Assembly (NCBI GenBank): GCA_016190215.1
Contig: JACPRA010000026.1
Location: forward strand, 1 to 51,645
Source: Candidatus Omnitrophota bacterium
GTDB taxonomy: Bacteria; Omnitrophota; Gorgyraeia; Aquiviventales; Aquiviventaceae
DNA length: 51,645 bases
Direction: 5' to 3'
Positions 3,478 through 51,645 of the stretch are shown here, in pieces. The notes under the pieces were generated by a model, which searched no databases, was not told the DNA's origin, and worked only from the letters and a program-made list of their open reading frames with translations. Position 1 is the first letter of the stretch. Each line of letters opens with the position of its first letter. Position numbers and translations under genes: made by a program.

Positions 3478-3508
3478 CTGTCTGCTGTGTGCTGTGTGCT
3501 GTGTGCTG
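3478..3508 (-). repeat. Heptamer array, copy 1 (abuts sdhC start)
   Basis: Four tandem 7-mers plus 3 nt of the form CTGTCTG then CTGTGTG three times. It reads as GCACACA units on the minus strand. The array ends one base before ATG 3509 of sdhC, so the space where a ribosome binding site should lie is made of repeat. Its outer flank is GTTCCTGTCTG, similar to the inner flanks of the copies near 22320 and 50478. Confidence 0.85.
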
Positions 3509-12081: not shown

Positions 12082-12105
12082 CAGCACACAGCCAACAGCA
12101 CACAG
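12082..12105 (+). repeat. Heptamer array, copy 2 (between ppc and VKOR gene)
   Basis: Three 7-mers plus 3 nt: CAGCACA, CAGCCAA, CAGCACA, CAG, followed by the common inner flank AGAAG. It begins 3 bp after the ppc stop and ends 12 bp before ATG 12118. The middle variant unit with CCAA recurs in the reverse-strand copy at 22323-22350, so those two arrays are close relatives. Confidence 0.8.
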
Positions 12106-22259: not shown

Positions 22260-22269
22260 CTCACATGAA

Positions 22270-22350
22270 GCAGACAGCAGACAGCACACAGTACACAGAA
22301 GAAGCGGTTCGCCGCTTTGTTCTGTCTGCTGTGTGCTGTTGGCTGTGTGC
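22270..22350. mobile_element. Heptamer-array hairpin (copies 3 and 4), candidate internally deleted element
   Basis: Forward array GCAGACA x2, GCACACA, GTACACA (22270-22298) and reverse array TGTCTGC, TGTGTGC, TGTTGGC, TGTGTGC (22323-22350) face each other. Between them lies AAGCGG-TTCG-CCGCTT, a perfect tetraloop stem, so the whole unit folds into one long imperfect hairpin. The inner flanks (CACAGAAG and GCTTTGTTCTGTCTG) resemble those of the arrays around the four-helix-bundle gene at 50040-50506. It fills almost all of the rny-ymdB gap. Confidence 0.75.
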
Positions 22351-24708: not shown

Positions 24709-25534
24709 CGCCGCGCTCGCCGAGGCGCTGAAGCCTCGCGACGGCGCGCCGGTCATGCTGTACGAAGCGATGGCCTATTGCGTCTCGGGCGGCGGCAAGC
24801 GGTTCCGGCCGCTGCTGTGCCTGGGCGGGTCCCTGGCCGTCGGCGGCTCGCCCGCGCAGACGCTGCCGGTGGCCTGCGCCATTGAGCTGATCCATACCTA
24901 TTCATTGGTGCACGACGATTTGCCGGCGATGGACAACGCCGATGAGCGCCGCGGCCGGCCGGCCTGCCACAAACGCTTTGGCGAAGCCGAGGCGATCCTG
25001 GTGGGCGATGCGCTGCTCACGCGGTCATTTGAGCTGCTGGCGTCGTCCCGGCTGCCCAACGCGCCGGCGGTGCTGCGCGCGCTGGGCCGGGCCAGCGGCA
25101 CGGAAGGCTTGATCGGCGGCCAGGTGCTAGATTTAGCACACAGCAGACAGCACACCCCGGCCCGCCGGATAGTTCTCGCGCCGGGGCGGGCAGCACACAG
25201 GGCGAAAAAGATCGAGGAGATTGCGAAGCGCAAGACCGGGGCGTTGATCCGGGCCAGCGTCGTCGCCGGCGGATTGGCCGGCGGAGCCGACCGGGCGGCG
25301 CTCAACCGCCTCTCGCGCTACGGCGAGCGGCTGGGGCTGGCGTTTCAGTTGGTGGACGACCTGCACGATCGCGACGGGGCGGTGGCCGTCGTCGGCGAGC
25401 AGCGCGTGCGGCAGCGGGCCGAACGATGCATTGCGCAAGCGATGCAGCAGGTGGAACCGTGGGGACGCCGGGCCTGGCTCCTCACCGCATTGGCGGAGTG
25501 GCTAACAAGGAACGCGAATGACACGACTGCTTGA
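24662..25534 (+). CDS. ispA: Polyprenyl (farnesyl/geranylgeranyl) diphosphate synthase with an in-frame repeat insertion
   Basis: A 290-residue trans-prenyltransferase. The first Asp-rich motif is HDDLPAMDNADERRGRP, preceded by the GGKRFRP substrate loop; the second is QLVDDLHDRDG. The normal segment between 'GGQVLDL' and 'KIEEIAKRKTGALI' is replaced by about 23 residues (AHSRQHTPARRIVLAPGR and following) encoded by a heptamer array plus a GC hairpin at 25136-25200. The frame is kept and both catalytic motifs remain, so the enzyme may still work. It starts inside xseB at ATG 24662 (or 24671) and overlaps dxs by 17 bp; both enzymes serve isoprenoid synthesis. Confidence 0.9.
   Translation: MPKMTNRLKRLTARVDAALAEALKPRDGAPVMLYEAMAYCVSGGGKRFRPLLCLGGSLAVGGSPAQTLPVACAIELIHTYSLVHDDLPAMDNADERRGRPACHKRFGEAEAILVGDALLTRSFELLASSRLPNAPAVLRALGRASGTEGLIGGQVLDLAHSRQHTPARRIVLAPGRAAHRAKKIEEIAKRKTGALIRASVVAGGLAGGADRAALNRLSRYGERLGLAFQLVDDLHDRDGAVAVVGEQRVRQRAERCIAQAMQQVEPWGRRAWLLTALAEWLTRNANDTTA
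25136..25200 (+). repeat. Heptamer array plus GC hairpin inserted in ispA (copy 5)
   Basis: GCACACA, GCAGACA, GCACAC (25136-25155), then CCCCGGC...GCCGGGG (25156-25187), then CAGCACACAG (25191-25200). The hairpin matches the inner hairpin of the 19425-19592 element at 26 of 32 bases. The insertion is entirely within the coding frame of ispA. Confidence 0.8.
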
Positions 25535-49269: not shown

Positions 49270-50103
49270 TCATGGAACTTTCACCATGGTGAACGACGGG
49301 CTGAACGGGCCGCTGGCATTGATGTTCCGCGCGGCGCCGGAATCCTGGTAGACGAACAGCTCCACGTAATCGTTCACCGCCAGGGTATAGTGCGCCACGA
49401 TGAACATCTGCCCGCTGACCGCGCTGCCCGGCAGGTTCATGCTGGCCACATCCGTGGCGCCGTTCACGCGGACGGTGAGGTTGCGCACGCCGCCCGCGTA
49501 GCCCGCCCAGTTGACGTTGCCGAGGATCAAGTACTTGCCGGCGGTCTTGGCGACCAGCCGGGTGGCGCTCGTCGCCGTGCTGTGCAGATCCCCGGTATCG
49601 TAGACTTCGCTGTCGAACGGCAACGCCAGCTCCGTGTTGTTCGGGACCGAGACCGCATTGCTGTTGTACGCGCGCACCGACACATCCGCGGCGGAGCCGG
49701 CCAGGCGTTCGGCGGTTTCCGCGCGCAGCGCCAGCGGCACGGCCGTGATCCGCTGCCGCGGGCTCAGCTCGGCTTCCGCGCCCACCTGCAGCGACAGCCA
49801 GGACGGCGCGCTCCAGTCGGTGGTGAAGGGCGCCACCTGCCCCAGCAGCACGCTGAATTGGCCGGAGCTGATCGGCACGCTGGTCTGGGTTTCTTCCCAA
49901 ATTTTCGTGCCTGCGGTTTCCGCGTCGTACAGCCGGAACGTCAGCGTGTACGGACCTTCCAGCGGCACGCCGTTGGCATCCAGAGCCTGTCCTTGGTAGC
50001 GGATCAGCTTGGGGATGTCGCCAGAAGCAAGCGCTGGCAGCAGACAGCTGACAGCACACAGCATACAGAACGATCTAAACCAATACCTGGAACCCCTAAC
50101 CAT
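49270..50103 (-). CDS. Secreted protein with a C1q/TNF-like C-terminal domain
   Basis: A 277-residue protein. After a signal peptide (1-27) comes 'IPKLIRYQGQALDANGVPLEGPYTLTFRLYDAE' and 'SGQFSVLLGQV', a beta domain common in surface proteins of this kind of bacterium. Residues 150-277 have a jelly-roll pattern with 'NNTELALPFDSEVYDTGDLHS', 'AGKYLILGNVNWAG' and 'NDYVELFVYQDSG', like C1q/TNF-type trimers. The signal peptide hydrophobic core (FCMLCAVSCLLPAL) is read from the heptamer array at 50040-50068. The ATG lies within the end of the four-helix-bundle gene. Confidence 0.75.
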   Translation of the reverse strand: MVRGSRYWFRSFCMLCAVSCLLPALASGDIPKLIRYQGQALDANGVPLEGPYTLTFRLYDAETAGTKIWEETQTSVPISSGQFSVLLGQVAPFTTDWSAPSWLSLQVGAEAELSPRQRITAVPLALRAETAERLAGSAADVSVRAYNSNAVSVPNNTELALPFDSEVYDTGDLHSTATSATRLVAKTAGKYLILGNVNWAGYAGGVRNLTVRVNGATDVASMNLPGSAVSGQMFIVAHYTLAVNDYVELFVYQDSGAARNINASGPFSPSFTMVKVP

Positions 50104-50506
50104 GACGCACCTCCCGTGTGACGTGCACTTTCAGGCCGTTGAGCATCTTGCCTACCTCTTCGACAAGGATTGCGGCCTCCGGCTTGCTTGAATCGAGATA
50201 ACCAAGGTCTTTCGTCAGAAGATAGTAGTACTTCAACTCGTCGAGAGAACCATGCGCAATGCTGAGAAATTGCAAGAATTCATGCTTACTCCGTCGCTGA
50301 TGACCTTCCGTGATATTCGCTGCTACTGAAACAGCCGCGCGCCTCATCTGTTGGAGCAGGCCATACCGTTCTTCTTTGGGGAGCTGTTGGGTTAGTTGAT
50401 ATGTGTGCATAACCAACTCATGCGCTTTCTGCCAAACTAACAACTTTTGGAACGTCCTCATGTGTTGCTGAGCTTTTCTGTTTGCTGTGTGCTGTCTGCT
50501 GTGTGC
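50040..50506. mobile_element. Heptamer-flanked four-helix-bundle unit (copies 6 and 7)
   Basis: A forward array GCAGACA, GCTGACA, GCACACA, GCATACA, G (50040-50068) and a reverse array TGTTTGC, TGTGTGC, TGTCTGC, TGTGTGC (50479-50506) enclose the four-helix-bundle gene as inverted repeats. The inner flanks (TACAGAAC and GCTTTTCTGTTTG) resemble those of the 22270-22350 hairpin. The left array is inside a secreted-protein gene, and the right array carries the stop codon of the Ig-like protein gene. No transposase is visible. Confidence 0.7.
50096..50461 (-). CDS. Four-helix-bundle protein (23S rRNA intervening-sequence protein / S23 family)
   Basis: A 121-residue all-helical protein from ATG 50461. 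'FQKLLVWQKAHELVMHTYQLTQQLPKEERYGLLQQMRRAAVSVAANITEG' is the family signature, followed by 'EFLQFLSIAHGSLDELKYYYLLTKDLGYLD' and a last helix. The family includes proteins coded in 23S rRNA insertions and is structurally related to Avd of diversity-generating retroelements; its activity is not known, though nucleic-acid binding is likely. It is less GC-rich than the neighbours. The stop overlaps the start of the secreted protein gene. No reverse transcriptase or template/variable repeat is present. Confidence 0.9.
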   Translation of the reverse strand: MRTFQKLLVWQKAHELVMHTYQLTQQLPKEERYGLLQQMRRAAVSVAANITEGHQRRSKHEFLQFLSIAHGSLDELKYYYLLTKDLGYLDSSKPEAAILVEEVGKMLNGLKVHVTREVRHG

Positions 50507-51645
50507 TATTGAGGAACGACGGGTTTGCGGAGCACGAATATCTGCCGCTGCGCGACGGCGTCTCCTCCCAAACCATCTCGCGCTCGAATCTCCAATGTAT
50601 GCGGTCCTGCCTGTCCTGAGGTGGGCTGCCACGCATAGGACGCGTTGCTGCTCCACTCCATCAGCACGCCGCCGTCCAGCCGGACTTGATACTGGATCGG
50701 GTCCTGCTGCTGATCTGACGCGATGATGGAAATGGCGGTCGGATCATTCGCATACAGCTTTTCGCCTTGAGCCGGCGCTATGGACATGATGGCCGGCGCC
50801 GTGCCTCGCATGACGCTGAGAGTGCGCGTCGCGTGCAGATCGTTCGGGCTGGTTGCGACGATGGTCAGCGTGTTCGCACCTGCGGCCAAAGGCACGTCTG
50901 CCTGAAACGCCGTCCCGGTTTGCGCGGCGCGGACACCGTTGACGTCCACCGTGGTCAGGTGATCGTCCACCGTGCCGCTGACGGTGAGCGGCGTCAGGTT
51001 CGTGACGGCCGGCGCCGTGACGGTGATGACCGGCGCCAGGTTGTCCACGACGATGGTCCGGGTCACCTGGGCGCTGACGTGTCCCATCGCGTCTTGAGTC
51101 ACGATGGTCAAGACGTTGTCGCCTTCCTGCAGCGCCACCGACGCGCTCCAGGTGGTCAGCGCATCCGCGGGAACCCGCTCCACACCGTTGATCCACACGG
51201 CTGTGCCCGGCGTCTTCGTGCCGCTCACCGTGTGGCTGTTGCCGCTTGCCAGCTCCGGCATGCTAGCCAGGGTCGGGCGCGCCGGCGGCAGGGTGCACAG
51301 GCGCACCGTCACCTGCCGGGTGGTGTGGTTGCCGGCGGCATCGGTGGCGACTGCAGTGATCAGGTTGGAGCCTTCCCGCAGGCGGATGCCCGGCGCTTGA
51401 AACGCCGTGCCGGTAAGCGTGGCGGCGATGCCGTTGACCGTCACGGAGCTGTTCGCTTCACTCACCGTGCCGGTCACTGTCACCAGTTGGCTGCCGCCCA
51501 GCGGGGCGGATGAAGCCGCCGACGCCCCCGTCTGCACCGTGAGGGCGGCCTGCGCCATCCGCCCGCCGATGGGCTCCCCGAGCGCGACGATCACCCGCAT
51601 CGGATTGCCGGAGCCGGCCGTGCCGCCTCCGGACACCACCTGCTC
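50506..51645 (-). CDS. Secreted Ig-like repeat protein, C-terminal part (partial)
   Basis: The frame is open to the right edge of the window, so only the last about 379 residues are seen; GTG 51639 is probably not the start. It contains at least four tandem beta-sandwich units with the pattern 'LTVSGTVDD...VDVNG...G..F...VPLAAGANTLTIVAT', typical of bacterial Ig-like (glucodextranase_B-like) adhesion modules, and a last domain with 'YQVRLDGGVLMEWSSNASYAWQPTSG'. The stop TAG lies in the edge of a heptamer array, so the element may have set the C-terminus. Confidence 0.75.
   Translation of the reverse strand, partial: EQVVSGGGTAGSGNPMRVIVALGEPIGGRMAQAALTVQTGASAASSAPLGGSQLVTVTGTVSEANSSVTVNGIAATLTGTAFQAPGIRLREGSNLITAVATDAAGNHTTRQVTVRLCTLPPARPTLASMPELASGNSHTVSGTKTPGTAVWINGVERVPADALTTWSASVALQEGDNVLTIVTQDAMGHVSAQVTRTIVVDNLAPVITVTAPAVTNLTPLTVSGTVDDHLTTVDVNGVRAAQTGTAFQADVPLAAGANTLTIVATSPNDLHATRTLSVMRGTAPAIMSIAPAQGEKLYANDPTAISIIASDQQQDPIQYQVRLDGGVLMEWSSNASYAWQPTSGQAGPHTLEIRARDGLGGDAVAQRQIFVLRKPVVPQ

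Follow-up and report, generated by a model that had tools for sequence, protein, structure and literature searches.

What kind of unit is formed by a small four-helix-bundle gene and the inverted arrays of 7-bp repeats that bracket it near one end of a 51,645-nucleotide stretch of Candidatus Omnitrophota DNA (hereafter the window)? An earlier note, made from the letters alone, placed a candidate mobile unit at 50040–50506, limits that were essentially exact, as we mapped the two arrays, or arms, to 50033–50506. We consider it likely that this unit belongs to a widespread class of minimal mobile elements that seems not to have been described. A member of this class would be about 0.4–0.5 kb long and contain a single S23-family gene, flanked on either side by an arm of about four 7-bp repeats, with the two arms in inverted orientation. 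It would insert as one unit, mostly between operon genes and beside a stop codon, and would leave a short target duplication, which is 5 bp where cleanly readable. The gene-bearing element would also yield palindromic gene-less copies (four heptamers, 11–115 bp, four inverted heptamers), which would multiply in the fashion of MITEs.

The sole gene of the window element (50096–50461, minus strand) encodes a 121-residue protein beginning MRTFQKLLVW, which matched Pfam 23S_rRNA_IVP (PF05635) with an E-value of 9e-37 and 126 bits (curated cut-off 33.8) and NCBIfam TIGR02436 with a score of 120 (cut-off 24), and which is thus an S23-family member by the curated cut-offs of both collections. Solved structures of S23 relatives (PDB 2gsc, XCC0516 of Xanthomonas campestris, and 2rld) contain five chains each. 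Residues Q38, R41, N49, E52, S72, and E75, numbered as in the window protein, are conserved. As the earlier note had stated, the gene differs in composition from its surroundings (50% GC, compared to 66–67% in both neighbours) and is accompanied by no transposase, as the only Pfam matches in the unit were to PF05635 and bAvd. The arms are oppositely oriented. The 5′ arm in the S23 sense (50479–50506, minus strand) consists of the four heptamers GCACACA GCAGACA GCACACA GCAAACA, and the inverted 3′ arm (50033–50067, plus strand) reads GCTGGCA GCAGACA GCTGACA GCACACA GCATACA, or (GCWSACA)4–5. The arms base-pair with each other in the predicted fold of 50030–50510.

Both edges of the element reach into other genes, again as proposed. 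The upstream gene (50506–51645, minus strand), which encodes Ig/cadherin-like repeats and is truncated by the window end, has its TAG stop codon directly at the outer end of the 5′ arm. On the other side, the ATG of the downstream gene (49270–50103, minus strand, 277 residues) overlaps the S23 stop codon, and the 3′ arm, read on the minus strand, encodes the hydrophobic core of the signal peptide of the downstream protein (CMLCAVSCLLPALA; LCAVSCLLPALA). At the orthologous site in genome G021, a different heptamer likewise encodes the hydrophobic core of a signal peptide (LLCAMCYLLP). Co-option of the repeat at both sites is possible, and the window copy may be old and partly co-opted.

Multiple comparisons of sites with and without the element bear on its mobility. 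First, in G001, a genome of the same genus, the two genes that flank the window element (74% identical for the upstream gene, 61% for the downstream one) are immediate neighbours, and the short spacer between them contains neither S23 nor arrays. The same junction holds a different S23 gene in G026 and an S23 gene with 63% identity and TAGCACA/TAGCAGA arms in G021 (locus L125). The window and L125 copies are one orthologous insertion, and the same C-to-T change distinguishes all units of both arms, which suggests concerted turnover of the repeats. Second, an element occupies the gspE/gspF junction of G000 and G026; G001 has none there, and G023 has a gene-less pair whose heptamers belong to a different family. 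The sequence GATGC at this junction is compatible with a 5-bp duplication. Third, four sites on complete cyanobacterial plasmids (A, B, C, and D) have both filled and empty alleles. Site A is filled in Trichormus and Scytonema and empty in Microchaete and Nostoc carneum, with about 98% identity, and the four homologous 50-kb plasmid stretches define the element with an exact 5-bp overlap, GTAAT. These plasmid alleles show that S23 and its arms insert as one unit. Site A is the only site with a clean target duplication: TTCTA at site B is compatible with a 5-bp duplication and overlaps the array, site D matches at four of five positions and is also compatible, and site C is not clean. The downstream gene has had its original start replaced, which makes the duplication of the window copy unreadable. 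Finally, related elements occupy three different junctions on cyanobacterial plasmids, and one genome has two element copies with unrelated flanks.

In the site A insertion (L036, L073), the Trichormus copy has a five-unit 5′ arm and the Scytonema copy a three-unit one, so unit number changes quickly. In Nostoc edaphicum, two ribonucleotide reductase genes flank an S23 element in antisense orientation (plasmid pNe_5, L169, 1401–1960), and co-directional placement is therefore a tendency and no rule. Three candidate lines of evidence were set aside. A TACAA 5-bp duplication at site E (L170, 640–1000, plasmid pC052_A of Nostoc C052) belongs to a conventional MITE whose inverted ends are 13 bp long (CCCGGATTTCTCA); nested inside this MITE are a heptamer element that has lost its S23 gene and another heptamer pair. 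The clostridial loci L054–L056 and L065, which had the appearance of separate insertions, share one common site and do not demonstrate mobility. Paralogues L243 and L246, with saturated synonymous sites, are old and attest only to copying as a unit.

The window heptamer family recurs elsewhere in the window at four places, two of them weak, which falls short of the "at least five" that had been claimed. One is an inverted pair at 22269–22350 (two sets of four heptamers in opposite orientation, about 25 bp apart), which folds into a single long hairpin (–56.7 kcal/mol, z –8.5) and represents a gene-less derivative. The others are a lone four-unit array at 3478–3508 (minus strand), for which a search found no inverted partner, and weak three-unit arrays at 12084–12104 and 25136–25156 (both plus strand). 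Chance does not account for such arrays, as 431 kb of the same genome contained 63 period-7 arrays compared to 3 in a Markov control, and a comparable excess was found at no period other than 7 and its double, 14. The array pattern had 225 matches in this genome, and the reversed control pattern had none.

Seventeen inverted heptamer pairs were found in the same 431 kb. Two enclose a gene, S23 in both cases, and the search of this sequence revealed no further kind of cargo. One of the 17 joins, by chance, arms of two adjacent elements, and the remainder are gene-less, with 11–115 bp between the arms. Copies of the GCACACA family have a fixed layout of four heptamers, GA...TTC, and four inverted heptamers, and the gene-less copies share the frame of the gene-bearing window copy. 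All three gene-less pairs that we folded form long hairpins, far below shuffled sequences. This family had 113 exact matches in G000 and none in its congener G001; the matches ranged from 39 to 143 in G014, G016, G017, and G024 (58 in G017, 143 in G024), and most other genomes had none. Several genomes, all incomplete assemblies, have many GCACACA arrays but no window-type S23 gene. The earlier proposal of an autonomous-looking unit with empty derivatives is supported, as it withstood both checks that the note had set for itself: relatives without the unit at the same place exist (G001 and the empty plasmid alleles at several sites), and arrays accompany S23 genes elsewhere, including all three in this genome. 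In Nostoc plasmid pNPM1 (L079, 950–1670), an S23 gene is interrupted by a gene-less heptamer element, likewise of the TCAGAAT family. No duplication surrounds the nested copy, and its interior presumably resembles IS200/IS605-type hairpins.

Arms accompany S23 genes well beyond the window. Three S23 genes were found in the assembly that contains it (979 kb, 79% complete); all have heptamer arms, each with a different heptamer. At the gspE/gspF junction (L003), the arms are GTCGCTC/GTTGCTN and form a near-perfect 29-bp inverted repeat; at L002, they are of the GGGGCAA type, and a contig end cuts the array on one side. In relatives, the mean lag-7 self-match was 12.6 in the 220-bp flanks of S23 genes and 4.9 in flanks farther away; within the range of lags 4 to 12, an excess of this order was confined to lag 7. 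The lag-7 pattern was also present at S23 loci of Acidobacteria, Bacteroidota, Marinimicrobia, WOR-3, Omnitrophota, Clostridia, and Verrucomicrobia and on complete cyanobacterial plasmids. A matched inverted pair was present at 61 of 127 S23 loci, an unmatched or one-sided array at 39, and no array at 27, so that 100 of the 127 have arrays. In controls, pairs occurred in 1 of 135 windows near the same loci and at 3 of 1500 random places in the window's own genome. Four was the most frequent number of units per arm (37/70 and 40/74), and certain arrays were very long. Searches with tblastn found no S23 relatives in phage records, and none of the S23 loci that we fetched contained a conserved 23S motif. 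Host phyla are intermixed in the S23 tree, and array-less genes are partly clustered and may mark domesticated lineages. One supported clade (L030, L031, L207, L211, and L212) has no heptamer arrays and may have been domesticated for a role in the host.

Beyond anything claimed earlier, the heptamer differs between elements and tracks the S23 lineage, and the phenomenon spans phyla. Across 88 loci, S23 identity correlated with heptamer similarity (Mantel r=0.34, with shared descent not fully removed), and the correlation persisted after removal of base composition (r=0.29), for S23 identities below 60% only (r=0.18), and for between-collection pairs only (r=0.24); 0 of 2000 permutations were as high in each case. 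TCAGAAG-like arms are common to cyanobacteria, Bacteroidota, and Acidobacteria at 59–67% protein identity, and AGTAG-type arms are common to Marinimicrobia, Omnitrophota, and Verrucomicrobia. S23 is under purifying selection, with dN/dS values of 0.03–0.3 where computable, and in close S23 pairs the arms remain alike at near-saturated synonymous sites. Joint inheritance alone should have allowed the arms to drift. Because their likeness persists at this divergence and across phyla, the arms are probably recognised by S23, a reading from sequence that the residual shared descent in the Mantel test keeps at the level of inference.

How might such an element move? On the most economical model, an S23 oligomer, plausibly a ring, would bind the arms as DNA or bind their hairpin in single-stranded DNA or RNA, and the arm-bound ring would draw the two element ends close to each other. 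At this point S23 might exert an unrecognised catalytic function or might pass the paired ends to general host machinery. We put forward only tentatively, and at clearly less than even confidence, that the transposase is S23 itself. On this reading, a small ring protein of the four-helix-bundle type, with no catalytic fold known so far, would recognise four tandem heptamers at each end and move both the element and its gene-less copies. We know of no catalytic motif in S23.

The strongest competitor, which we regard as unlikely, is that S23 is cargo or a regulator and that an ordinary transposase encoded elsewhere (of the DDE, Y1/RAYT, or reverse-transcriptase type) moves the arms and gene-less copies. 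DDE transposases typically produce 5-bp duplications, mobilisation in trans is the usual case for MITE-like derivatives, and S23 is distantly related to Avd, the partner of a reverse transcriptase. This explanation does not, however, predict that heptamer sequence follows the S23 lineage, and S23 is the only cargo found in the pairs of the searched 431 kb. Moreover, searches of the window's own genome (79% complete) found no RVT_1, DDE_Tnp_1, rve, or Transposase_mut match and one Y1 match, and all five families were missing from two genomes with abundant arrays, G017 (93% complete, with 58 array matches) and G024 (with 143), both of which have S23. We therefore rejected these families as a common source of activity; within the limits of incomplete assemblies, a shared helper from among them is unlikely.

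Less probable still is a host module in which S23 binds structured heptamer RNA, as a regulator, as part of a pair resembling a type III toxin-antitoxin system, or as an RNase III target, with the scattered gene-less hairpins as its regulon. The long RNA hairpins, the intergenic and mostly co-directional placement, and the action of the homologous rRNA intervening sequence at the RNA level (PMC4990558) would all fit such a module, but it sits poorly with precise presence or absence of the unit with a short direct repeat, with 113 versus 0 copies within a single genus, with different heptamers for the families of one genome, and with an array inside a signal-peptide sequence. Slippage of tandem repeats near a conserved gene, with an accidental inverted layout, could produce very long arrays and site A alleles of five and three units but can practically be discarded, as the arms are inverted copies with unit variants in near-identical order, enrichment is confined to period 7 (and 14), pairs are roughly 50-fold or more above controls, and the filled and empty alleles already refute it.

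The mobile element with S23 and heptamer arms appears to be a previously undescribed class; the open literature, which takes in only a small part of subscription journals and preprints, yielded no report that links S23 genes to heptamer arrays outside rRNA or names the unit as a mobile class. Such a class would explain the abundance of 7-letter repeats between bacterial genes, and joining S23 genes to heptamer repeats offers a testable explanation for both. It would also provide an example of a mobile element without a recognised transposase and a possible origin for the S23-bearing intervening sequences of rRNA. If S23 were the transposase, it would define a new class of enzyme for DNA mobility and would stand behind a large part of bacterial heptamer repeats as well as the rRNA intervening sequences.

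The element shares features with several known systems. First, like insertion sequences with MITE derivatives, it combines an autonomous-looking gene copy with gene-less palindromes that have common ends, and inverted ends with unit insertion and a target duplication were observed at site A (GTAAT), the duplication of the window copy being unreadable. Unlike insertion sequences, it has no known transposase domain, and its ends are 7-bp repeat arrays whose sequence varies by lineage. Second, as in REP/REPIN-RAYT systems, many intergenic palindromes per genome accompany a single gene lineage with matching sequence, but S23 is no Y1 HUH transposase, G017 and G024 combine S23 and many arrays with no Y1 match, direct repeats form at insertion, and the repeats are tandem heptamers rather than REP hairpins. 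Third, the Avd protein of diversity-generating retroelements is a homologous four-helix-bundle protein (bAvd, E=3.5e-11). The window S23 protein matched DivGenRetAVD at E=1.1e-13, below the curated cut-off, and scored 51 bits against NF033474 (cut-off 80); no retroelement parts lie beside its gene, and RVT_1 was not found in its genome. Fourth, published intergenic heptamers, including GGGAATC in Xanthomonas and Nostoc (PMC4692102), TAACTGA (PMC4679880), and those of a heptamer repeat survey (PMC6344855), likewise have a period of 7, lie between genes, mostly have four units, and form many close inverted pairs in Xanthomonas; these papers make no link to S23 and give the function as unknown or as quadruplex-related or regulatory.

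Finally, the closest parallel is with the intervening sequences with S23 ORFs in the 23S rRNA of Coxiella, Leptospira, and others (PMC4990558). These also have a single S23-family gene in a terminal inverted repeat (about 28 bp there), their unit number varies by strain, and they were earlier proposed to be remnants of mobile elements, a 1993 suggestion that they were once mobile being cited in PMC4990558. In the 23S work consulted, heptamer arms are not presented as a general trait. In contrast, the present elements lie between protein genes, as the window unit does, and not in rRNA, and every family is marked by a heptamer and gene-less copies of its own. The window S23 ORF lies within a stem-forming terminal inverted repeat (fold of 50030–50510), and the Coxiella intervening sequence has the same parts: an S23 ORF, tandem heptamers (GACAGAT) before it, and a 28-bp stem (PMC4990558). 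By this analogy, S23-bearing 23S rRNA intervening sequences would be copies that landed in rRNA genes, where the stem between the arms would be cleaved by RNase III, and they are probably one instance of the element class described here.
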